Origin: Zhongshania sp. | Lineage (GTDB): Bacteria; Pseudomonadota; Gammaproteobacteria; Pseudomonadales; Spongiibacteraceae | DNA length: 64,000 nt | NCBI RefSeq assembly: GCF_029212375.1 | Contig: NZ_JARGNU010000004.1 | Coordinates: 186,001-250,000, forward strand | Direction: 5' to 3' | In this document: piece by piece, positions 25,358-52,383 of the stretch | How the letters are laid out: each line of letters begins with the position of its first letter | Numbering within the stretch: the first letter of the stretch is position 1 | Program-made: the position numbers and the translations under genes | Notes under the pieces: model-generated | Database searches by the model: none | Seen by the model: only the letters and a program-made list of their open reading frames with translations | Told to the model about the DNA's origin: nothing

Positions 25358-26485
25358 TTAGTCGCCGTCTTTGGCGTTAAAACCGAGGCTGATTCCCAAT
25401 GCCTCGGGCAGGTCCGTTCTCAGCAAGCTAAGCAATTGGCTAAGTTCACTTTGAAAGGCGATTAGCTCGGCTTGCTCGCGGGGCTTGGCAGTGCTGAACA
25501 GGCTGTTTGGTATGGCTTTGGCGCTAGCAATACTGCTAGTAAAGCCTTGCTGAATTTTTGTGCTTAAGTCGCCGCGCTGCTTAACATCAGTTAGATAGTC
25601 ATCTAAGCCGTAGCCGTCATTGGCGTTAAACAGAGTTTGTAAGCTATTTAAATTGGCGGTAATGGCTTCTTTGGCGTACTGGCTGCGCCACCATTCCAAC
25701 AGGTAAATCTGGGCGCGGCCGGTGTCGCTGTCTAGGCCGAGTGGTCGTTCAAATTTGTCACGCTTAATCAGTTCAACTCCCGCCACTAAGGTGTCGAGTA
25801 AATTGGCGAGAGCAATGCTGTCGTCGGGGTATTCGGGGTTGTTTTTGCCGGTCTTTATAAAGCTGTGTAGATAGTCGCCGCCCTCGGGGCGCCACGCATC
25901 GTATAAGCCTGCTGCGACTCCGTGCAGATGGGTGGCTACGGCGACCAGAAGGTCGCAGCGACGAGCGCCGGTGGCATTGCTGTAGCTGTCGAGCTTGCCG
26001 GCCGCTTGGTCAAACAGTAAATATTCAAGTGAAGATAAGCCTTGAACCACTACGCTGCTGTCGTCGATACGCTTGATGTCGAGTGCTTCCTCGCTGCGCA
26101 ATAGCGTTTCTACCTTGCGGGCGATGAGGTTTTTCTTGTCTGGCCAAAACTGAATTTTCCACGCTTGATTGTCGACCAGTAAGGGGCCGAACTGGAGATT
26201 TTGTACTCCAGACCAAGCGATAACACTGCGCCGCCACTGGGTGCGGACTTCCTCAAAGGTCTCGCTGCTTTGAGTGGGCGCTGCGCAAAACTGAGCGGCG
26301 GCTTCGGCGAGTTGCAGGCTTGTCGTTGAAAACTCGTGGTAGCTAGTTAGGATGTAGCGTTCGCTGGTATCCGCTAGTACTTTGGCGGCGGGGGGCGGGC
26401 TGCAGGCGGCGATCAAACTAACGGCGCTGACCGCGAGTGCGCCGCGGGCCATGGATTTTATGGTTTGAGTAGTTATTGCGATCAT
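25358..26485 (-). CDS. Imelysin-like (M75) lipoprotein with degenerate motif
   Basis: 375 residues. A lipobox ending in Cys28 (VSLIAACSPPP) marks a lipoprotein. The remainder is helical like imelysin and EfeO-type M75 proteins, with the block LQFGPLLVDNQAWKIQFWPDKKN near residue 97. The hallmark G-x-H-x-x-E is replaced by GLSSLE at residues 149-154 (26024-26041), so the metal-binding His is missing while Gly and Glu remain. The start overlaps the di-haem gene stop by one base (TAATG), so translation is coupled. It may be a structural partner of the intact imelysin of the same operon. Confidence 0.9.
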   Translation of the reverse strand: MIAITTQTIKSMARGALAVSAVSLIAACSPPPAAKVLADTSERYILTSYHEFSTTSLQLAEAAAQFCAAPTQSSETFEEVRTQWRRSVIAWSGVQNLQFGPLLVDNQAWKIQFWPDKKNLIARKVETLLRSEEALDIKRIDDSSVVVQGLSSLEYLLFDQAAGKLDSYSNATGARRCDLLVAVATHLHGVAAGLYDAWRPEGGDYLHSFIKTGKNNPEYPDDSIALANLLDTLVAGVELIKRDKFERPLGLDSDTGRAQIYLLEWWRSQYAKEAITANLNSLQTLFNANDGYGLDDYLTDVKQRGDLSTKIQQGFTSSIASAKAIPNSLFSTAKPREQAELIAFQSELSQLLSLLRTDLPEALGISLGFNAKDGD

Positions 26486-27855
26486 TACAGTGCCTTTAGA
26501 AAATTCAGCAGGAAATGTTGTGAATTAGAGTCGAGTTGCAAATATTGCTGGCGACTTAATTGGGCTTCGCCGCCGTGCCAGAATATGGCGGCGTGAATTG
26601 AGTTGGCGCGGCCATCGTGAAGTAGCCGCGTATGGTCTGGATCTATGCTGCGCATACCCAGCCCCCACAGCGGCGCCGTGCGCCATTCGGTGGCGGGAGT
26701 GTTGTCGGTGTTGTGCTCATCGGCGAGTGCTGGGCCCATATCGTGGAGCAGTAGATCACTAAAGGGGTAAATGGTTTCGCTGCGAGCTAGGGTACTCGAG
26801 TTAGCCGGCTGCGGGTAGCTTGCGCGAATATGGGTCTGCGTTGCGGGAATATGGCAGGCGGCGCAGCCGAGTTGCTGAAACACGCTAAAGCCTTTTTCAA
26901 AGTCGGCGTTATGACGCGGGCTGGGTATGGCGAGATTGGCAATGTAGTTGGTTACTGCGTCCAATAATTTCGCGCTGATTTCATGTTCGTGTTGAGTTTC
27001 GCAATTAGGCGTATTTGCTGGGCAATTAGCTGCGGGATAAATGGGCGAGCGAATACCAATATCTTGGCTAAAGGCCAATGCAATTTGTTGTTTTAAGCTA
27101 CTTTGGCTGGCCTTCCAGCCAAATTTGCCTGGCCGAAAGCGCTGGCTTGCTGCATCCCAGCGTTGAATAGCGCGGCCAGAAATACCATTGCCGTCGCGGT
27201 CATCGGGGTCGCTGTGGCGCAAAATGTCTTCATCACTGATGCCGTCGAGCAAGCCCATGCCAATCAGTGCTGGCGCGAGGCGAGCTGAATACGCTAGCTC
27301 GCTGGTGTCGCCGTATTGGCCATTTTTAATGTAGTAACGGCGGTGATTCAACGGAGCCACTATGCCCTGTCTATTCGCGAGTAATGCCGATACGGTTTGC
27401 CAAGTAATTTGGCCTTCGGCGAGGGTGCCGGTGAGGGCGTGATCTTGCAGCTGCTCGCCGTAGGCTTGGTGCTGTGCGCCGCTGGGCGCGATGCGCAAAA
27501 TTAAGCCTGGTCCGTGTTCGGGCAGCTGGCCTTGGCCGTTATATTGGTGACAGCCGACACAGCTATTGGCATTGAATAAGGGACCGAGTCCGTCTCTGGC
27601 GGTGGTGCTGGCTGGGCCGCTGACCCAAGCTTGGGTCGCAAAACTTTTACCCACCGCCCAGTCGAGTTGCTGTTCAATGCTGAGCTGTGGCTGGGCTTGC
27701 AGCAGCAGGCGTGGCGAACCTTGCTCGCGGCTAAAACTCATTGCGCTGGGGTAGGGTGTAGGCAGAGGGCTTTCACAGGCGAGCAAACTGAGCAAACCTA
27801 TACAAAGCATGGCTTTAGCGAGTACTAAAGCCAGCATTGAGCGCCGACTTTTCAA
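26485..27855 (-). CDS. Di-haem oxidoreductase (DUF1111, thiol-oxidoreductase-like) lipoprotein
   Basis: 456 residues. The signal ends in a lipobox (GLLSLLACESP). Two c-type haem motifs are visible: CVGCHQY at about residue 95 and CAACHIP at about 330. Between them lie blocks typical of DUF1111 proteins: GMGLLDGISDEDILRHSD, DRDGNGISGR, GKFGWKASQ and the later LHDMGPALAD and APLWGLGMRSID. The start is a TTG at 27855, three bases after the imelysin stop, or an ATG six codons later. It probably carries electrons in the periplasm for redox chemistry on iron handled by its imelysin neighbours; the substrate is not established. Confidence 0.93.
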   Translation of the reverse strand: MKSRRSMLALVLAKAMLCIGLLSLLACESPLPTPYPSAMSFSREQGSPRLLLQAQPQLSIEQQLDWAVGKSFATQAWVSGPASTTARDGLGPLFNANSCVGCHQYNGQGQLPEHGPGLILRIAPSGAQHQAYGEQLQDHALTGTLAEGQITWQTVSALLANRQGIVAPLNHRRYYIKNGQYGDTSELAYSARLAPALIGMGLLDGISDEDILRHSDPDDRDGNGISGRAIQRWDAASQRFRPGKFGWKASQSSLKQQIALAFSQDIGIRSPIYPAANCPANTPNCETQHEHEISAKLLDAVTNYIANLAIPSPRHNADFEKGFSVFQQLGCAACHIPATQTHIRASYPQPANSSTLARSETIYPFSDLLLHDMGPALADEHNTDNTPATEWRTAPLWGLGMRSIDPDHTRLLHDGRANSIHAAIFWHGGEAQLSRQQYLQLDSNSQHFLLNFLKAL

Positions 27856-27858
27856 AGC

Positions 27859-29151
27859 TTATATGCCTGTTGCTGTGGGGTCGATCTGTATCGCGCTTGC
27901 GGCAGCCTCAAAGGCGGGGGTTTGGACGACTAAGGCGGCGAGTATATCGCTAAGGATTTTTTCGCCCTGCTTATTGCCTTCAGCGATCAACATGTCGAAT
28001 TTCACTGGGTTTTGCGCGGCCTCGGCGGTGTCGCTTAATACTTTGAGGCTGGCCATGGTGTCGCTCAAGGCCTTGCGGGTTTTGTTGTCGATTGCTGGCT
28101 TAGCTTGGCGGACAAGGTCGCCCAGTGCGGGCCCGCTAAGAATGCTGCCATCTAGACGTTGATAGCGACCGAGATACAGGTTTTCGATACCGAGTCCATT
28201 ATAGTAATGAGACCAGTGGGTGTTGTCGCTAAAGCAGTCGTGTTCATCTTCGGTGGAATTGGCCTCTAAAGAGACCTTTATACGCTCGCCGCCCAATTCA
28301 CCTAGCGACAGCGAGCCCATGCCACTAAACATCCGCGCTAAGACAATATCGCTTTTAAGGCCGAGTAGCTGCGCGCGGTAGTTGTCGGTTTTGTTCGGCG
28401 CCCACTGTTTTGTCATATAGCTGAGGTCGTCGACAAGAACACTGACCGCGCTGCGCAAATACGCGGCGCGGCGGTCACAGTTGCGGTGGCTGCAGTTATC
28501 GCCAAGGCTGTAATCGGTGTAGGGGCGCTCGCCTGCGCCGAGTTCATGGCCGTGGAGATCTTGTCCCCAGAGCAAGAACTCGATCGCGTGGTAGCCCGTG
28601 GCGACGTTGGCAGCCGAGCCGCCAAGTTCGTGTAGGCTGCGCAGTAATTCGGGGGTGATGGCGCTGGCGTCGAGCACTTCGCCGCCCAGATTAATAGTTG
28701 GATTGCCAATAATGTTGAGACTACCGCCAATATTGCCCAGCGCGGCGAAGTAGTCTTCTGCTACGTAGTCAATTAAGCCCTCGTCGAGGGGCCAGCTATT
28801 TAGCTTGTATTCCCAGTCGTCTACGACGGGGTTGCCAAACCGAAACACCTCGCTCTGCTGATAGGGGATGCGGGCGGTTTTCCACGCCTGTTGCGCGGCG
28901 ACTAAGCCTGCTGGGCTTGGTGCTTTTAATAAGGCCTCGACCTTGGTTTGCAATTGACGGGCGCTACTTTCAGCGTCGCTGTACACGGCGTAGGCAAGTT
29001 CGGCGTAGTGTTTGACTACCGCTTGAGCCGTCACTGCGTTGGGCTTTTTGGTGTTGCCGCTGTCATTAGCATGAAGCAGGCTGGAGAGCATAAGGCAGCT
29101 GATAAGGACTAAAATCTGGCGAAACAGCGCTGGCATTAACAGACTCCGCAT
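27859..29151 (-). CDS. Imelysin family (peptidase M75-type) protein
   Basis: 430 residues with an N-terminal signal peptide (ILVLISCLMLSSLLHA). The imelysin signature GYHAIEFLLWGQD is intact (28579-28596 encodes GYHAIE). Other family blocks are FRFGNPVVDDWEYKLNSWPLDE, PYTDY and MFSGMGSLSLGELGGERI. Relatives include iron-regulated IrpA of cyanobacteria, the P. aeruginosa ICMP protein and the M75 domain of EfeO in ferrous iron uptake. It is the first gene of the operon, 51 nt downstream of a Fur-box-like sequence, consistent with an iron-starvation role. Peptidase activity is doubtful for the family. Confidence 0.93.
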   Translation of the reverse strand: MRSLLMPALFRQILVLISCLMLSSLLHANDSGNTKKPNAVTAQAVVKHYAELAYAVYSDAESSARQLQTKVEALLKAPSPAGLVAAQQAWKTARIPYQQSEVFRFGNPVVDDWEYKLNSWPLDEGLIDYVAEDYFAALGNIGGSLNIIGNPTINLGGEVLDASAITPELLRSLHELGGSAANVATGYHAIEFLLWGQDLHGHELGAGERPYTDYSLGDNCSHRNCDRRAAYLRSAVSVLVDDLSYMTKQWAPNKTDNYRAQLLGLKSDIVLARMFSGMGSLSLGELGGERIKVSLEANSTEDEHDCFSDNTHWSHYYNGLGIENLYLGRYQRLDGSILSGPALGDLVRQAKPAIDNKTRKALSDTMASLKVLSDTAEAAQNPVKFDMLIAEGNKQGEKILSDILAALVVQTPAFEAAASAIQIDPTATGI

Positions 29152-31754: not shown

Positions 31755-32738
31755 TTGGCTCGATTAGCGCAGTTACTTTTTTTAACGTTAAGCGTTATTG
31801 CTATATCGCCAAGTTTACGTGCCCAATTGATTAACGTGCAGCTATTGGGTAACTCACTGACGGCGCCAGTAACCGATTTGCTGTCTAATGTTGATCTTTT
31901 GAATGAAGAAGCCGGCGGCTTGGGTGTTTTACTCGAGGTGGATGTGCTTGGTGACAACGGCTTACTGGGTGTAAGTGTTAGCGGCCAAGATATATTGCTT
32001 TTGGGTGCGCCAGTGGCAGATGACCCTACTGGAAGCGTTCTTGCGCCGTTAATGGATTTGGGTGGTTCGCAGGGCGCGGTGCTTGAGTTTTTGCAGGACA
32101 CCGCGAGTGATGGCGATATCAATCCAACGGTGCTCACAGTAGTACTGCCGGGTTCTGGTGATGCGTCGAACGGCGGTATTGATAACAGTAAAGATAAAGT
32201 AATGAAGCCCGCAAGTGACTCCGCTGAAGAGTTACCAAAAGACAGCGGGTATCGATGCGTAGATAATGATCGCGACAATGTTTGCGACAGCCACGACCAA
32301 TGCCTCGATTCAGCGCCTCATGCCATTGTTTTACCCTCGGGATGTCATCTTGATGCCAAAACCCCACTGGCACTGCGAGATGTGACCTTTGCGGTTGATA
32401 CGGCACTATTAACAGCCTCGTCTACGGCGACCCTGCGACAAGCAGCGAAGATGCTGAAAGCAAACCAAAATCTACAGATTGAAATTGGCGGCCATACCGA
32501 CGATTTGGGTAGTGAAAATTATAATCAGCGTTTATCTGAACGCAGAGCTGTGGCCGTAAAAAAATACTTTCTGGCTGAGGGTGTTCCTGAGTCGATGCTT
32601 TCAGTTCGCGGTTATGGTGAGAGCCGGCCAGTTGTAGCGACGGATTCCCTTGAGGGCAATGAATTACTTGCCGCTCGAACGCGGAATCGGCGTGTTGAAC
32701 TGCGTGTCCTTAAGGGCGACCCTAAGCCTAGCGAATAG
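31755..32738 (+). CDS. OmpA-domain exported protein with Leu/Gly-rich N-terminal region
   Basis: 327 residues from a TTG with AGGA close upstream. A signal peptide (LLFLTLSVIAISPSLRA) ends near residue 23. Residues 24-110 are rich in Leu, Gly, Val and Asp with an LxxLLGxxx rhythm (VTDLLSNVDLLNEEAGGLG, LLLGAPVADDPTGSVLAPL), like the small repeat protein two genes later. A short Asp/Cys-rich thrombospondin-3-like segment follows (CVDNDRDNVCDSHDQC), then a C-terminal OmpA peptidoglycan-binding domain (EIGGHTDDLGSENYNQRLSE and RTRNRRVELRVL). It is followed in the same frame, 18 nt later, by the TpsB-like gene. Likely anchors a surface structure to peptidoglycan; inference. Confidence 0.88.
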   Translation: MARLAQLLFLTLSVIAISPSLRAQLINVQLLGNSLTAPVTDLLSNVDLLNEEAGGLGVLLEVDVLGDNGLLGVSVSGQDILLLGAPVADDPTGSVLAPLMDLGGSQGAVLEFLQDTASDGDINPTVLTVVLPGSGDASNGGIDNSKDKVMKPASDSAEELPKDSGYRCVDNDRDNVCDSHDQCLDSAPHAIVLPSGCHLDAKTPLALRDVTFAVDTALLTASSTATLRQAAKMLKANQNLQIEIGGHTDDLGSENYNQRLSERRAVAVKKYFLAEGVPESMLSVRGYGESRPVVATDSLEGNELLAARTRNRRVELRVLKGDPKPSE

Positions 32739-32756
32739 CGTTACACTGGAGAAATT

Positions 32757-34487
32757 ATGGCTATCGATTTACCACCACTTATACCACCACAGGCCTCGAC
32801 GGCAGAGCGAATAGAGCAATATTCAGCTCAGCATTCAGAGAGCGTTATTGCGGTCAAAGTCGGTGATTATGATTTGCGAATTTCGGGGAATCGCTATTTA
32901 ACTCGCGAGCAAATTGACATGATAATGGGGGCGGCAAAATCCCCCGCGCAGGCGGTGAATGCGCTAAATCAAGCGTATTATCAATTAGGGCATTTGTTAG
33001 TTACTGTGTATTTTGCCCAGCGAGATAAAACCATTTTTGCCCATGTCATTAATGGTAAATTGGCAGCAATCAAAGCCCCCGACAGTATTACGCCCTATTT
33101 TTCGGGCTTGGTTGGTGATGAAGATTTACGGAAATCTGAATTTGGCGGCAAGCAGGTGCTCGCCAATTTAAAAAGTGATCGTGCAGGGCTCGATTACGCG
33201 GTGACCTACCAAGTTGCCGGCGATCCTGCAGCTTATACTTTGGTATTTACCGAGAGACCTAAAGTAGACCACGACAGTACCGAGCTGAGTGTTAGTGCTA
33301 ATAATTTTGGTAATCGTTTCCTAGGTCGTTATTTTGGCAATGTCTCACTTAAACACGATTTTAGTAGCGGAATAGATGCCTTGTTGTCTTACGACAGGGC
33401 GCTTACCGAGTTTGGTGAGGTCAATGGCGGCGATTATTACGACGGGTATACCTTTAGGTTGAGTTATCCGAGTAGTTTTGGCCTGTATGGAATAGAGGCG
33501 CGTTATACAGAATACCAGCGCGACACAGAGGTTTTGCTTGAAGGTGGCGTAGCTGCAGAGCAAACCAGTGGGAATTCGGGGGGGCTGTGCGCAATACCAC
33601 TGCTTTGTGATATCAGTAGTGGCTTACTTGGTCTTGACTTGGGTTTACCGAGCGACTCGTCACTCCCATCTTCCGGTGGCGGGAGTACCACACTTCATCT
33701 TTATTCAGAAACGACATCGGTCGCCCTAACTGGGGAGCAGGTCATTAGTGGTGATAGTTATCATCGTTTCACGAGCTCCCAGCGACTGGAAAAAATTGAC
33801 AGTTTTATTGATGTAAAGAATGTCGGCCTTGCGTTGGATGAACCCCATACCACCCTAGAGTTGGGGCTTAAATACAATAAATTGCTGCGCTTATTTGGTG
33901 TTGGTAGCCAGTTAACTGCGCAGGGTTTTGTCGAGGCGGGTTTAGAGGGTGATGCGGGCACATTAGGCACAGATAGCCGTGAGGGTGTAGTGGCAGTAGG
34001 CCGGCGAACGGGTGAGTTTGTGGTATTTAAGCCCCGTGCGGGGCTTAAAATGGCCGTGGCCGACTGGGCCAGTATTAAGTTCGATGTAATTGGCCAATTT
34101 TCAAATAATCAGCAGTTACCGCTGCAACAGCAATTTTTTCTCGGCGGTGGTAGTGGCCTCAGCGCATATTTACCAGGTGTTTTGGTTGGTGATTCGGGTG
34201 TGTATAGCAAGCTCTCATTAGAGAGCAATGGCCTGCCATTCTTAGGCTTACAGTTCAAACCCTCGCTTTTTATTGAGCATGGTGAAGTGTGGTACGAAGA
34301 TGCCGCTGGTCAATCCGGTGACGTGCGGGCAATCGCTGATGCGGGTTTCACCCTAGAAGCGGAATTGGGGAAATACCTTAAAACTGAATTGATCGCTGCA
34401 ACACCAATTTACGATGATAATCTTGACGAAGATGCCTTATCTGCTCTAGAAGTGGATTTCTTTTGGCGTATAAAGCTCAGTTTCTAA
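32757..34487 (+). CDS. TpsB/Omp85-like outer-membrane protein
   Basis: 576 residues resembling ShlB/FhaC two-partner secretion transporters. Residues 40-165 look like POTRA domains (NRYLTREQIDMIMGAAKSPA, ALNQAYYQLGHLLVTVYFAQ), and residues ~175-576 are a beta-barrel ending in phenylalanine (WRIKLSF). Oddities: no signal peptide, since the start MAIDLPPLIPPQ is polar and the frame closes at the upstream TAG; and the conserved loop motif V-R-G-Y/F is LSAY at 34158-34169 although flanking GGG and GDSG blocks are kept. The ribosome site GGAG is strong. A substrate may be the repeat protein at 34791; inference. Confidence 0.82.
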   Translation: MAIDLPPLIPPQASTAERIEQYSAQHSESVIAVKVGDYDLRISGNRYLTREQIDMIMGAAKSPAQAVNALNQAYYQLGHLLVTVYFAQRDKTIFAHVINGKLAAIKAPDSITPYFSGLVGDEDLRKSEFGGKQVLANLKSDRAGLDYAVTYQVAGDPAAYTLVFTERPKVDHDSTELSVSANNFGNRFLGRYFGNVSLKHDFSSGIDALLSYDRALTEFGEVNGGDYYDGYTFRLSYPSSFGLYGIEARYTEYQRDTEVLLEGGVAAEQTSGNSGGLCAIPLLCDISSGLLGLDLGLPSDSSLPSSGGGSTTLHLYSETTSVALTGEQVISGDSYHRFTSSQRLEKIDSFIDVKNVGLALDEPHTTLELGLKYNKLLRLFGVGSQLTAQGFVEAGLEGDAGTLGTDSREGVVAVGRRTGEFVVFKPRAGLKMAVADWASIKFDVIGQFSNNQQLPLQQQFFLGGGSGLSAYLPGVLVGDSGVYSKLSLESNGLPFLGLQFKPSLFIEHGEVWYEDAAGQSGDVRAIADAGFTLEAELGKYLKTELIAATPIYDDNLDEDALSALEVDFFWRIKLSF

Positions 34488-34543
34488 TGTAAGAAAATGC
34501 AGTATTGCGCTGCCGAGAACATTCTCGGTAGCTGGCTTACATT
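34486..34543. repeat. Nested inverted repeat at the 3' end of the TpsB-like gene
   Basis: Outer arms AATGTAAG (34486-34493) and CTTACATT (34536-34543) enclose an inner near-perfect palindrome (34509-34532) with core CCGAGAACATTCTCGG. The outer left arm starts inside the stop codon. There is no T-run, so it is not a classical terminator. It could stabilise or process the mRNA, attenuate transcription into the repeat protein, or bind a protein as a DNA palindrome. Confidence 0.6.
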
Positions 34544-34790
34544 CAACATTCCGCTTAATTTTCTAAACTCGCCGCCTATCTGTCTTTATCTGTAGTGCTC
34601 AATGTTGCAGCTATGTGTCGTAGTTTGGGCGATTTCACCATGATTGGCATTTTATTGTGAGCAATACCACATTCAAGTGTAGGTATTAGTGCGTAGTATT
34701 CGGGTGTGGACAGCGGTTAAACTAAAATTTAATCGTGCTTAACCAAATTGATAACAATGAATAACGCTTACTAAAAGCATTGGGGATATT
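34488..34790. other. Intergenic region before the repeat-protein gene
   Basis: Apart from the nested hairpin at its left edge, this 303-nt stretch holds no ORF I would call. The last ~120 nt are AT-rich and probably contain the promoter of the downstream gene, whose start is preceded by TGGGGAT. I could not pick out a convincing -35/-10 pair. Confidence 0.5.
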
Positions 34791-35393
34791 ATGAAAACTA
34801 CAAAAATTAAAAAAGTAGCCTTGGCTGTCGCACTTGTATCAGGAAGTGCATTAAGTTTCGCAGGCCCGTTGGCGCCGGTTATTGATGTGTTATCTGCCAT
34901 CGATGCTCAGCTTGGGAGTGCCGGCGGTGGTCTTCCAGGTTTAGATGCATTACCTGTAGATCTGTTGCTAGTTGGTGGCGGTTTACCTAGTTTAGATGCA
35001 TTACCTGTAGATCTGTTGCTTGTTGGTGGCGGTTTACCTAGTTTAGATTCACTACCAGTTGACCCAACGGCCTTAGTTGGTGGCGGTTTGCCGGATCTGC
35101 TGATTTTGGGTTCGCTACCCGCCGACCCAACTTCAATAGTGGGTGATTTACTCGCGACGATTACTTCTTCATTGGGTGGCGGTGTACCGACTCTGCCTGG
35201 TTTGGGTGCATTGCCAGTTGATCCAACTTCTTTACTTGGCGGCGATGTGACTGGCCTGCTGGTTTTGGGTTCACTGCCAGCTGACCCCACCTCCTTAGTG
35301 GGTGATTTACTCGCTACCGTTACTTCTTTGCTGGGCGGTGGCGTACCGAGCTTACCCGGTTTAGCTGCGATTCCGGTTGCTCTGCCTATCTAA
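34791..35393 (+). CDS. Exported Leu/Gly/Pro/Asp repeat protein
   Basis: 200 residues. A classical signal peptide (KKVALAVALVSGSALSFA) ends at residue 24. Almost all of the mature chain is repeats: three units of about 17 residues beginning GGGLP (residues 45-96, e.g. GGGLPSLDALPVDLLLV), then two units of ~50 residues built on LGSLPADPTS, VGDLLATxTS and LGGGVPxLPGL (from residues 103 and 156). No Cys, almost no charge except Asp, and few aromatics. No known family; not collagen-like. Its place after the TpsB-like and OmpA genes suggests a surface or matrix protein. A clear terminator follows at 35436. Confidence 0.87.
   Translation: MKTTKIKKVALAVALVSGSALSFAGPLAPVIDVLSAIDAQLGSAGGGLPGLDALPVDLLLVGGGLPSLDALPVDLLLVGGGLPSLDSLPVDPTALVGGGLPDLLILGSLPADPTSIVGDLLATITSSLGGGVPTLPGLGALPVDPTSLLGGDVTGLLVLGSLPADPTSLVGDLLATVTSLLGGGVPSLPGLAAIPVALPI
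34923..35078 (+). repeat. Tandem 51-nt repeats (last unit 54 nt)
   Basis: Three head-to-tail copies at 34923-34973, 34974-35024 and 35025-35078 within the repeat-protein gene. The first two share long identical runs including GATGCATTACCTGTAGATCT; the third diverges in its second half. The near identity at DNA level points to recent duplication by slippage or recombination, so copy number may vary between strains. Confidence 0.88.
35097..35393 (+). repeat. Two longer direct repeats (about 159 nt unit)
   Basis: A unit beginning at 35097 (encoding LLILGSLPADPTS) recurs at 35256 (encoding LLVLGSLPADPTS) and runs to the end of the gene, the second copy slightly shorter. Protein similarity is high but codons differ more than in the 51-nt units, so this duplication is older and is kept by selection on the protein. 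Confidence 0.8.
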
Positions 35394-35473: not shown

Positions 35474-36808
35474 TCAGCGTATTGGCAGTGCGAGTGTAAC
35501 TTGCAGACCACCTAAGGGTGAGTCGCTAAAGTGTATTTCGCCATCATAGCTGTCGACAATGTCACGAACAATCGCCAAGCCTAAACCATGCCCTTGGCCG
35601 TACTGGTCGCCACGTAAGCCCCGTTGCAAGAGTTGCTGGCGCTGTTCTTCTGTCATTCCTGGGCCATCATCATCAATGTGGATGTGGCACGAGTGTTGGT
35701 TTTCGGTCGCAGTGATTCTAATTTTGTGCCGGCAGGCCTTGCTGGCATTGTCTAGAAGGTTTCCGAAAAGCTCCATGGCATCCTGCTCGTCGATAGCGAG
35801 GGCAAGCTTGCTGGGTAATTGATTTTGAAACTGAGGCGCTTTGTCTCGATAAACTTTCTCTAAGGATTGGCTGAGACGAGCAATCAAGGCTTTAATTGGG
35901 GTTTTTCGGGCTAAGTGCTGCTTGCCACTACTGACCGCGCGCTTTAATTGATAGTTGATAATATTGTCCATGCGCGTGATTTGTTCTTGTAAGGCATTAG
36001 CGTCAGTGCTGCCGGATTTTAATACGGCTAAGGGCGTTTTAAGGCTGTGAGCGAGGTCGGCAAGGGTGTTGCGATAGCGTTCGCGCTGCTTTTTCTCTTT
36101 GTCGAGTAATTGGTTTAAATTGTCGGTGATACCGCGTAACTCGCGGGGGTAATTGGTGCTGAGCTTTAGGGTTTCACCGTGCTCTAGGCGGCGGAGGTCG
36201 CGCGCAAGCTCGCGCAGTGGGCGAAGCCCCCAGTACAGAATAAAAGCGCTGATAAATAATGACAGAATCAGCACTAAGCTCAGCCACAAGCTGAGCTGCG
36301 CGCGGAAATTTTTGCGTTCGGTCAAGAAAGTGCTTTGCTGGGAATACAAAGAAAATAATAGGGGTACTTCACTATCCTCTTCGGTCTCCCAGATGGCATG
36401 GTAATGAAAAGTAAAAAACGGTTTATTGTTTATTTTCGTATCGCCAAATAATTCTCGGCCAGAGCGAGGCATGTCTTTTGGGGAGGGAAGGTTTAAGGTG
36501 TCGCTCGATACTGAGCGCCATACTACTGCGCCGTTGCGCTCTCTTATCTCAGCGTACAAGCCTGAGCGAAACTGCCAGAAGCGAGGCTCTTTCAGTCTAT
36601 CGCCCATCTCAAAATTGCCATCCTGCCACTCGATGGCGCCGAGTAAACCAAAAAATTGCAGTCGCAGCTGCTCTTGTTCGGCGCTAATTAAGCTACTGGT
36701 GTGGGCTCGGTCAATTGCCACGCCTGTTAAACCGAGCAGCAGCGGCATTAAGGTGAGGCTGGCAACAATTAGACGGCGGGTAATGGAGCCGGGGCGGGTG
36801 CTGGGCAT
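35474..36808 (-). CDS. Sensor histidine kinase, PhoQ-like
   Basis: About 444 residues from the ATG at 36808; a TTG at 36835 with an AGGGG upstream is the alternative. A transmembrane helix near the N-terminus, a periplasmic domain (about 35-165), a second helix around 170-195 and a HAMP-like segment (RPLRELARDLRRLEHGE) precede the phospho-accepting His in ADLAHSLKTPLAVLKSG. The ATPase domain has ELFGNLLDNASKACRH, DDGPGMTEEQR and GHGLGLAIVRDIVDSY. It lies one base after the response regulator, so they are a pair. The acidic segment ETEEDSEVP in the sensor could bind divalent cations as in PhoQ; inference. Confidence 0.93.
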   Translation of the reverse strand: MPSTRPGSITRRLIVASLTLMPLLLGLTGVAIDRAHTSSLISAEQEQLRLQFFGLLGAIEWQDGNFEMGDRLKEPRFWQFRSGLYAEIRERNGAVVWRSVSSDTLNLPSPKDMPRSGRELFGDTKINNKPFFTFHYHAIWETEEDSEVPLLFSLYSQQSTFLTERKNFRAQLSLWLSLVLILSLFISAFILYWGLRPLRELARDLRRLEHGETLKLSTNYPRELRGITDNLNQLLDKEKKQRERYRNTLADLAHSLKTPLAVLKSGSTDANALQEQITRMDNIINYQLKRAVSSGKQHLARKTPIKALIARLSQSLEKVYRDKAPQFQNQLPSKLALAIDEQDAMELFGNLLDNASKACRHKIRITATENQHSCHIHIDDDGPGMTEEQRQQLLQRGLRGDQYGQGHGLGLAIVRDIVDSYDGEIHFSDSPLGGLQVTLALPIR

Positions 36809-36809
36809 G

Positions 36810-37493
36810 TTAGTGCTGGGTTTCGCTAAGCTCAAAACGGTAGCCCCTACCGCGCAGGGTAGAAATGGGCTTTAACGTATTTGCTGGGTCAATTTTTTTG
36901 CGCAGCCGGGCGATAAAGACTTCGATAACATTGCTGTCGCGATCAAAGTCTTGATCGTATAGGTGTTCAGTTAAGTCGGTTTTTGACACCACTTGGCCGC
37001 TGCGCATGGCCATAAATTCTAGGGCATTGTATTCGTAAGCGGTGAGTTCCAACGGTTGCTTATTTAGCAGTGCGCGCTTGGCGCCGGTGTCAATGGTCAG
37101 GCAGCCGAACTCTAGTTGCGGGCTGGCAAATCCGGCTGAGCGGCGAATTAGGGCATTGGCCCTCGCCATAACTTCTTCAATTTGAAAGGGTTTGGCAACG
37201 TAGTCGTCGGCACCACTTTCGAGCCCCTCGACTTTGTCTTGCCAGCGGTCCCTTGCGGTTAATATTAATACGGGGAATTTGCGACCTTCGCCACGCCACT
37301 GTTTTATAACGCTAATACCGTCTAATTTTGGTAGGCCAAGATCAACCACGGCGAGATCGTAGGGGTTTTCCTGCCCTAGAAAAAGTCCTTCGCCGCCATC
37401 GGCGGCGCAGTCACAGGCGTAGCCAGCCTGTTCAAATTGACGACGAAGCTGTTCTAGCAGCAATAGCTCGTCTTCTACAATTAGTATGCGCAT
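36810..37493 (-). CDS. OmpR-family response regulator, PhoP/QseB-like
   Basis: 227 residues. Receiver domain with EDE at residues 7-9, phospho-accepting D51 in VVDLGLPKLDG, T79 in LILTARDRW and K101 in DDYVAKPF. The winged-helix domain has LTAYEYNALEFMAMRSGQVVSK, NVIEVFIARLRKKID and LRGRGYRFEL. It is upstream of, and nearly contiguous with, the PhoQ-like kinase. A PepSY protein and a glycine-zipper protein directly upstream on the same strand are typical companions of such systems and likely part of the regulon or operon. The gap to the PepSY stop is 19 nt. Confidence 0.94.
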   Translation of the reverse strand: MRILIVEDELLLLEQLRRQFEQAGYACDCAADGGEGLFLGQENPYDLAVVDLGLPKLDGISVIKQWRGEGRKFPVLILTARDRWQDKVEGLESGADDYVAKPFQIEEVMARANALIRRSAGFASPQLEFGCLTIDTGAKRALLNKQPLELTAYEYNALEFMAMRSGQVVSKTDLTEHLYDQDFDRDSNVIEVFIARLRKKIDPANTLKPISTLRGRGYRFELSETQH

Positions 37494-37512
37494 AGAAATA
37501 TCCGGTCAGCGA

Positions 37513-37812
37513 TTAATCAATGGTGACGTTTTTGATTTTGCCATTATCTTGCAGAATACGTACGCGGTAGCCTGATCCCGCTTTTTGTGCACCTACGGCT
37601 CGGCCGCCATAACGCCGCTCGGCAATACTAATGGCCTCACTGGCCGTCATACTTTCCCTTGCTCGTGTATCTAAGCGCTGTTCAAATTGGGGCCGCTCAG
37701 GAAGTCCTAGGTGGCCCCCCGTTGCGCCGCGCAGAGGGTCGGCATTCAGTTGCGCGGCCAGAATACAGGCGCCGGCCAATATGCCTACTTTGTACAGCTC
37801 TCTTCTGCTCAT
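37513..37812 (-). CDS. PepSY-domain exported protein
   Basis: 99 residues from the ATG at 37812, which has AGGA five bases upstream; an ATG five codons earlier is possible. A signal-like hydrophobic segment (VGILAGACILAAQLNA) is followed by a single PepSY domain at the C-terminus: MTASEAISIAERRYGGRAVG and YRVRILQDNGKIKNVTID. Such small proteins are often encoded beside PhoPQ-like systems. Function is unknown; PepSY domains have been proposed to inhibit peptidases or sense ligands. It lies 19 nt before the response regulator and 21 nt after the glycine-zipper gene. Confidence 0.87.
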   Translation of the reverse strand: MSRRELYKVGILAGACILAAQLNADPLRGATGGHLGLPERPQFEQRLDTRARESMTASEAISIAERRYGGRAVGAQKAGSGYRVRILQDNGKIKNVTID

Positions 37813-37833
37813 AGAATTCCTAGGCATTCGCCC

Positions 37834-51069: not shown

Positions 51070-52383
51070 TTATTTGTTCGGGCTAATAACCTGCAGCTCA
51101 ACACGACGATTGCGCTCACGGCCTTCGTCAGTATTGTTGTCGGCAACCGGTTTGCTTTCGCCATAACCGGTGGCTTTTTGACGAGACTCGCTAATGCCTT
51201 TGCCGGTCAAGTAACGCACCACAGACTCAGCGCGTGATTGAGACAGCTTCAGGTTGTAAGCATCGCTGCCAACTGAGTCGGTGTGACCCATGATGATGAT
51301 ATTAACATCTGGCTCATTGCTCAGTGACTCTGCGACCTTATCGAGCACGGTCTGGGAGTCAAGCATCAGTCGGGCTTTGTTAAACTCAAAATGCACACCA
51401 CTTAAGGCAACAGTTTGAGAGAGTACACAGCCACGAGAGTTGACTTTCAGGCCGGGCAGGGTGCCTGGGCATTGGTCAATTTTGTCGGGTACGCCGTCGC
51501 CATCGCTATCCAGTGGGCAGCCTTGGGCATTAACCGGTACGCCATAGGGTGTGTTTGGACACTGGTCGATGTCATTGGGCACGCCGTCGCGGTCGTCATC
51601 AATTGAACAGCCGTGCACGTTTACCATAGCGCCAGGAGGCGTGTTGGGGCACTGATCACGGAAGTTAGGAATACCGTCACCGTCGCTGTCCAGTGGGCAG
51701 CCAGTCGCGTCAACTGGGGTGCCACGGGGGGTGTTGGGGCATTTGTCCAAGCGGTCTGGTACGCCGTCGCCGTCGGAGTCGTAGTTGTAGGGCAGGGGTT
51801 TTTCGCCAAAGGGTACCGAGAGACCAATTAAGAAAGCGTAGGTATAAAATGAATCGTTTTCAGGGAAAATTGGTGCTTGTTTTTTAATGCTGTCGATTTG
51901 GTAACGAACTTCACCGCGGATCGCGATTTTATCAAGCTCGTAGGTGAAACCGACAATGGCATCGCTGCCGTAATCTGATTGGGTATTCGTCACAGTTGGT
52001 GCTTCGTACTCAACTTCGTGATAAGTCAGACCTACACCCATATAGGGCTGAAGGGCGTCAGCGTCAAGCGAGAATGCGCCTAAAGGAAAGTAAAGAAAAT
52101 CTAAACCGCCTGCAAATCTGCTGTAGGTGTCATTTCGGGTGTTTTTCAATTCGCCATAGTTGATATGACTGTCGACCATGATGTAAGTGCTGATTGCCTT
52201 ACCAATACCGATTTTGCCCTCATTACCAGAGTCATAATCGTCTTTATCGGCAAAGGTGGAACCAATCATGCCGTGCATGCGCCAGCGGTTATCAAGCACG
52301 GAGTCTTCGTTGTTTATATCGGCTAGCACCGGTGTAGAGAGTGCGGTTGCGGCTACTATCAGCGCAAGAGTACGCAAGTTCAT
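51070..52383 (-). CDS. OmpA family protein with four thrombospondin type-3 repeats
   Basis: 437 residues. Signal peptide (LALIVAATALSTPVLA), an eight-stranded OmpA-type barrel to about residue 190, four Asp-rich type-3 repeats (DSDGDGVPDRLDKCPNTPRG and three more, at about 200-320), and a C-terminal OmpA peptidoglycan-binding domain (IIMGHTDSVGSDAYNLKLSQ, RERNRRVELQVI). The repeats bind calcium in homologues. It resembles OprF in layout, with more repeats than OprF. The start has AGGAG upstream. It lies 69 nt downstream of the 899-residue lipoprotein gene, separated by a hairpin. Confidence 0.95.
   Translation of the reverse strand: MNLRTLALIVAATALSTPVLADINNEDSVLDNRWRMHGMIGSTFADKDDYDSGNEGKIGIGKAISTYIMVDSHINYGELKNTRNDTYSRFAGGLDFLYFPLGAFSLDADALQPYMGVGLTYHEVEYEAPTVTNTQSDYGSDAIVGFTYELDKIAIRGEVRYQIDSIKKQAPIFPENDSFYTYAFLIGLSVPFGEKPLPYNYDSDGDGVPDRLDKCPNTPRGTPVDATGCPLDSDGDGIPNFRDQCPNTPPGAMVNVHGCSIDDDRDGVPNDIDQCPNTPYGVPVNAQGCPLDSDGDGVPDKIDQCPGTLPGLKVNSRGCVLSQTVALSGVHFEFNKARLMLDSQTVLDKVAESLSNEPDVNIIIMGHTDSVGSDAYNLKLSQSRAESVVRYLTGKGISESRQKATGYGESKPVADNNTDEGRERNRRVELQVISPNK

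Follow-up and report, generated by a model that had tools for sequence, protein, structure and literature searches.

Two-partner secretion (TPS; type Vb), as in FhaC/FhaB and CdiB/CdiA, joins a transporter of the TpsB fold to a repetitive substrate in a gene pair, and TpsBs fall into FhaC and Hmw1B groups only, as far as one account goes (PMC4104836). In this study we describe a locus that resembles such a system in its TpsB fold, in its pairing of a transporter gene with that of a putative substrate and in the repetitive nature of the latter. It lies in a stretch of 64,000 nucleotides (the window) from Zhongshania sp. (assembly GCF_029212375.1, contig NZ_JARGNU010000004.1; G000:C19:186001-250000, where labels beginning with G, C, L and f stand for our genomes, contigs, loci and families), which is part of a 3.8-Mb Spongiibacteraceae genome. 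Three consecutive plus-strand genes are concerned: P0001 encodes an OmpA-domain protein, P0002 a TpsB-like barrel protein and P0003 a small exported repeat protein. An earlier note on this DNA had reported the three in a row, and all of them lie where it had placed them. We propose that the locus might act, by analogy with TPS, as a two-partner-like export module for surface repeat proteins that would be tethered to peptidoglycan, and we give this reading a probability of roughly one half.

In contrast to described TPS systems, the barrel protein here has no signal peptide and no arginine in loop L6, it carries Glu instead of the strand-13 Asp, no partner with a TPS domain was found in the genus by the Pfam model PF05860, and the pair includes an OmpA domain. 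Because signal peptide, L6 arginine, strand-13 Asp and recognised TPS-domain partner all fail, we do not file the locus as a TPS system; judged by analogy, it probably works like one. Retention of type V substrates at the cell has been described. The TPS adhesin CdrA is reported to be retained by a periplasmic C-terminal tail (PMC5422565), as are other TPS adhesins, and the retention that we propose here would likewise use a periplasmic C-terminal part; that part, however, would be an OmpA peptidoglycan-binding domain, on a passenger without recognised TPS domain. AtaA-TpgA is presented as a trimeric autotransporter with a peptidoglycan-binding periplasmic partner (PMC13082670). It is thus similar in pairing a type V barrel with a peptidoglycan-binding protein, whereas the barrel here is a TpsB; the TpgA model (NCBIfam NF047726) matches the OmpA domain of P0001 weakly (47.7 bits, far under its cut-off of 350). 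The bcpAIOB class of TPS loci, as its source describes it, also has an extra envelope-protein gene 5' of the TpsB gene, but there BcpO is a small predicted lipoprotein and BcpA a TpsA-family contact-dependent inhibition protein (PMC3415462). Among the literature matches listed, no description of a signal-less or OmpA-paired TpsB was found.

What is conserved at the locus is a pair of genes, the first for an OmpA-domain protein and the second for a TpsB-like barrel. It recurs in the window's own genome as four barrel paralogues, each with an OmpA-domain gene directly upstream; this recurrence and the missing signal peptide are new with respect to the earlier note. The barrel was present in all 21 Spongiibacteraceae genomes searched, where 85 match rows, with 12 row pairs taken as split genes, correspond to about 73 genes (2-7 rows per genome, counted as 2-5 genes each), and at this search sensitivity no match came from 36 genomes that belong to the order but to other families. 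Our neighbourhood scan covered 49 of these genes (47 loci with long flanks), and an OmpA-domain gene adjoins 48 of them; the sole exception, L060, has a Gly/Leu-rich exported protein at that place. At canonical TpsB loci of the class no OmpA-domain open reading frame (ORF) was seen (0/30, within short flanks of about 1.5 kb beyond the matched domain). A maximum-likelihood tree of 54 barrels splits into old paralogue lineages, and in most of these the OmpA partner is of a type peculiar to the lineage: SGQDILLLG, the window's type (8 of 48 partners), NSGN-repeat (12), long DPVTD-repeat (9) and a short type (19, at several places in the tree). The nearest named relative at the locus is Zhongshania antarctica, with 74% barrel-protein identity. 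Beyond the family the barrel is rare. A profile built from 24 barrels matched 14 of 369 class genomes, namely our own, two of family f148, two of family f120 and nine over part of the barrel, seven of which have a readable TpsB with signal peptide. A further 398 genomes drawn from the phylum gave one additional match, G613 (family f215); 200 genomes of its order gave nothing beyond G613 and one partial match, and plasmids gave none. Two pairs stand close together in one segment in each of two genomes (L062, L087), as in a local duplication, and in another (L074/L024, genome G007) the OmpA partner gene is broken by a frame change before its end, through decay or sequencing error.

On its predicted fold and its profile, P0002 (576 aa; 32757..34487, plus strand) is a TpsB homologue. 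Pfam ShlB matches it with 33.5 bits (cut-off 22.7), and in a profile comparison with hhalign its family aligns to 14 canonical TpsBs with a probability of 99.5 and an E-value of 7.6e-23. The structure model has two POTRA domains and, by our own reading, 16 strands; the closest fold matches are CdiB and FhaC, with BamA and TamA also among them. A search of solved structures with the barrel sequence profile found none with an E-value of 1 or below. For Omp85 transporters an Arg-Asp lid lock has been described, which TpsBs carry as (V/I)RG(Y/F) in L6 and (F/G)xDxG in strand 13 (PMC4490367). In P0002 the L6 tip reads LSAYLPG (34158..34178, plus strand), and FIEHG (34269..34283, plus strand) aligns at the place of the strand-13 motif. 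The L6 arginine motif occurs in none of 54 barrel-family members, compared with 32 of 33 full-length canonical TpsBs (four canonical ORFs below 450 residues were left out). Glu507, aligned with the canonical Asp, is invariant in 24/24 and 18/18 aligned barrel rows. Counted as a pattern, the Glu form is found in 54/54 family members, while canonical TpsBs show the Glu form in 0/32 and the Asp form in 26/32; the Asp pattern also matches elsewhere in the same stretch, for example as VGDSG, in 31 of the 54.

In the place of a signal peptide P0002 begins with MAIDLPPLIPPQ (32757..32792, plus strand), and M[A/P]ID forms the N-terminus of all 49 barrel genes found by similarity. Among 51 rows chosen by M[A/P/S]ID[L/F/M], a choice that itself fixes the M, I and D columns, the proline at position 11 is invariant too and third codon positions vary. 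Peak hydrophobicity over the first 45 residues, which is a simple measure and not a signal-peptide predictor, was 0.49-1.89 (mean 1.04) in 49 barrels, compared with 2.2-3.3 in seven canonical TpsBs and at least 1.9 in 25 of 30 canonical ORFs, fragments included. OmpA partners reach a minimum of 1.48 and a mean of 2.26, so that their range overlaps that of the barrels whereas the means differ.

P0001 (327 aa; 31755..32738, plus strand) starts at a TTG that matches the start of the Z. antarctica orthologue and has a signal peptide, a Leu/Gly-rich N-terminal region and a Cys/Asp-rich linker. The LLG-rich region (residues about 24-168; 31824..32258, plus strand) contains the lineage motif SGQDILLLGAP. 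The C-terminal OmpA domain, of the peptidoglycan-binding type (residues 211-302; 32385..32660, plus strand), reaches 81.6 bits (Pfam cut-off 27.2), and its conserved GHTD and LSxxRA residues are presumably those that bind peptidoglycan. Of the 48 OmpA partners, 21 contain the repeat within their own sequence. The NSGN lineage, represented in our own genome by L046, carries a repeat of period 16 there, and of two DPVTD-lineage partners scanned one (L066) matches Pfam Collagen_mid (PF15984; 51.4 bits) and the other (L063) does not. In four other partners (L049, L051, L053, L057) a long charged C-terminal extension follows the OmpA domain, with YxxVLxFLE in three; the lengths of L052 and L056 suggest a similar one.

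The third gene encodes an exported protein of 200 aa rich in Leu, Gly and Pro (P0003; 34791..35393, plus strand), whose signal peptide ends in ALSFA and whose mature part has no Lys, Arg or Cys. No Pfam model matched it over any cut-off and no NCBIfam model at E up to 1. Its repeats, pointed out in the earlier note, exceed chance: self-identity is 42% at lag 53, whereas 500 shuffles reached at most 27% over all lags from 3 to 59, and its gene holds DNA tandem arrays of 51, 63 and 159 bp. By thresholds of our own, a small Leu/Gly/Pro-rich repeat gene stands within 4.5 kb of the pair, upstream or downstream, at 14 of the 19 loci that belong to the window's lineage (the window, L042, L043, L044, L048, L054, L055, L061, L074, L080, L150, L153, L154 with 4.1 kb between them, and L155; contig ends truncate L054 and L074). 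The same thresholds, which do not count the Gly/Leu-rich neighbour of L060, gave 0 of 38 for loci of other paralogues if seven cases in which the OmpA partner itself qualifies are set aside. Relatives of P0003 occur in 13 of 38 genomes, all Spongiibacteraceae, some away from the pair. Our own genome has a second such gene at C26:81029 (L163:7018-7620), away from any barrel pair; its mature protein starts with PLAPV and ends with IPI, like several others. In G009, G016 and G017 the repeat gene adjoins the two-component genes known from the flank of the window's locus, with the barrel pair elsewhere, which hints at shared regulation of these genes with the repeat gene. Five of the 19 loci have no adjacent copy (L071, L151, L152, L156, L157), and four of the five genomes concerned (G001, G006, G016, G017; not G005) have a P0003 relative elsewhere. 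P0003 thus belongs to a dispersed family and is accessory to the pair; it is a likely trans substrate and not a fixed third gene.

Outside the window's lineage the repeat also comes as a separate protein. In f148 (L110, genome G167, the one genome with enough flank, the other contig being too short) an exported NSGN-repeat protein has an OmpA protein and a MAIDLPP barrel as its neighbours, and it is related to the fused repeat of L046: the composition-adjusted BLASTP match (E = 4e-12) spans a non-repeat stretch too, and the score of 233 compares with a maximum of 147 in 300 shuffles. Both f120 genomes have the order barrel, repeat protein, OmpA protein. The occurrence of fused and separate forms thus ties the three components together. 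Looking for the same three-gene order in relatives, as the earlier note had proposed, therefore gives a divided result: the components associate in f148 and f120, and their order differs there. Its wider reading, a repeat protein exported by the TpsB-like barrel and anchored through OmpA, keeps its core, a TpsB-fold barrel accompanied by OmpA and low-complexity repeats and by no recognised TpsA; what changes is that the conserved unit is the pair (48/49), that the repeat is often within the OmpA protein (21/48) and that the small repeat gene is accessory (14/19 loci).

The note had also stated that no recognised TpsA gene is present and had named one elsewhere in the genome as a possible true partner. 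PF05860 finds none in the whole assembly or in the other genus genomes (0/16, own included; 2/8 others have one), and because the same model missed a TpsA adjoining the G613 barrel (NCBIfam TIGR01901, 37.6 bits, cut-off 29.1) this absence holds for PF05860 only. A related neighbourhood is found in G215 (L119:5442-10061), where a canonical TpsB stands between two Gly-rich repeat proteins, one with a Collagen_mid match of 150 bits and, by eye, a lipoprotein-like start, the other an exported Gly/Val repeat protein. It resembles our locus in that Gly/Leu/Val-rich repeat proteins adjoin a TpsB, and L066 shares the Collagen_mid match; it differs in the signal peptide of the G215 barrel and in the neighbours of that barrel, among which no OmpA gene was seen. 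None of the three window proteins matched PF15984, even with E-values up to 10 allowed. To judge from the sequences, G215 is possibly an independent pairing of a TpsB with repeat proteins. As a wide pattern we rejected Collagen_mid beside barrels; it is a single example because it was over the cut-off in 1 of 321 class genomes. Taken together, the TpsA of G613, the repeat neighbours in G215 and the fused and separate repeats make the evidence lean towards transport of repetitive polypeptides.

How the module might work can be sketched by analogy with TPS. The TpsB-fold barrel would sit in the outer membrane with its two POTRA (polypeptide-transport-associated) domains in the periplasm, where they would take up an unfolded repeat that the barrel threads outward. 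The passenger could be in cis, as the repeat-bearing N-terminal part of the OmpA-domain protein, or in trans, as a separate exported protein such as P0003. With the C-terminal OmpA domain remaining on peptidoglycan in the periplasm, a repeat displayed at the surface would stay attached to the cell. As to how the barrel itself crosses the inner membrane, our guess is Sec targeting by its conserved N-terminus or its mature part. It is possible, and we suggest this tentatively, that such barrels form a separate class of outer-membrane exporters, with the TpsB fold but without cleavable signal peptide or Arg-Asp lid lock, whose passengers are repeats free of a TPS domain and either joined covalently to an OmpA peptidoglycan anchor or held by it.

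Several results weigh against the export proposal. Altered lid-lock motifs could mean another function. The short-type partners make up 19 of 48 (one of them, L070, is long and borderline), and the stretch before the linker is just 65-70 residues in L049, L052 and L056, so a cis passenger is not universal. The OmpA partner in f120 carries its own beta-barrel (Pfam OMP_b-brl, 75 bits) and that in f148 a barrel-like region by eye, where Pfam found none; a partner therefore need not be a passenger. The N-terminal region of P0001 was dropped as a relative of the repeat proteins, with scores of 47-68 in five comparisons, each no higher than the best of the respective 300 shuffles, and the L046 repeat did not match that of f120 (L091) significantly (88, shuffled maximum 126). 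That partner type follows the barrel clade (eight changes on the tree, compared with a shuffled mean of 30.8 and with as few in 0 of 200 shuffles) speaks for the linkage, but as clustering on the tree only. The five loci without an adjacent repeat gene and the TpsA that PF05860 missed belong here as well. The strongest counter-reading draws on the partners without repeat and on the f120 partner with its own barrel; in it the TpsB-like barrel might be a dedicated assembly factor for the OmpA partner, an insertase like BamA or TamA and not a secretion pore, with the repeats periplasmic or structural. The OmpA partner as constant neighbour, the barrel-bearing partners of f120 and perhaps f148 and the presence of BamA and TamA among the fold matches would fit it; nevertheless we consider it unlikely, as the best fold matches are the TpsBs CdiB and FhaC and not BamA, Pfam recognises ShlB, the four Spongiibacteraceae partners scanned (P0001, L046, L063, L066) have no Pfam barrel domain, and the relative in G613 adjoins a TpsA.

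It is also doubtful that only the OmpA-barrel pair acts together, with the small repeat gene encoding an independent secreted or periplasmic protein that owes its place to inherited gene order. An inverted repeat with 11-nt arms and no T-run (34509..34532, no strand assigned) separates barrel and repeat genes, the latter is missing at five of 19 loci, and copies stand elsewhere in our own genome (C26, L163) and beside the two-component genes of G009, G016 and G017. Yet 14 of the 19 lineage loci have such a gene and no other-paralogue locus does (0/38, OmpA partners aside in seven), of the five genomes in which no copy adjoins the pair four have a relative elsewhere, and genes of all three kinds also stand together in f148 and f120. 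Far less probable is a misread barrel start or a protein outside the outer membrane, with a signal peptide supplied by recoding or the barrel being cytoplasmic. To our knowledge bacterial barrel proteins are held to require a signal peptide, and we know of no established route for one without it. Phe or Tyr is the last residue in 23 of 24 aligned barrels; such an ending is typical of proteins inserted from the periplasm by the beta-barrel assembly machinery (BAM), and so a route should exist. The start itself is well marked, by GGAG (32748..32751, plus strand) immediately 5' of the ATG and by Shine-Dalgarno-like sites in 46 of 51 family members, besides the conserved N-terminal residues with their free third codon positions. 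A signal peptide hidden in another frame was rejected, as no signal-peptide-like stretch joined to the barrel frame was seen by eye in the upstream frames of 18 loci. Read-through of a stop codon or frameshifting into an OmpA-barrel fusion was rejected likewise because relatives differ in how far the barrel gene lies from the OmpA gene and in which frame; P0001 and P0002 share one frame in the window.

The surroundings of the export module we propose can be described briefly. By a simple scan, neither the gap between P0001 and P0002 nor that between P0002 and P0003 holds a plus-strand promoter-like or terminator-like site, and a terminator-like hairpin of 14 pairs followed by a T-rich stretch lies 3' of the P0003 gene (35436..35466, plus strand). 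Next to the P0003 gene, on the minus strand (35474-37827), are genes that by eye encode a sensor kinase, a response regulator and a small exported protein. A further OmpA-domain gene (51106-51390, minus strand, in a 437-residue frame) is one of 15 OmpA-domain matches in our own genome. At 26485-29151 (minus strand) there are two adjoining exported proteins, which by eye we take to be a di-haem CxxCH protein and an imelysin-like protein.

In conclusion, a TpsB-like family without lid lock and signal peptide occurs in several copies per genome in one bacterial family, with members in two or three more. Such a family would make it possible to test what purpose the Omp85 lid lock serves and how barrel proteins can be targeted without a signal peptide. 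If the export reading is true, a passenger fused to an OmpA domain would be a new way to keep a type V substrate on the cell, and an anonymous class of repeat proteins would gain a function.

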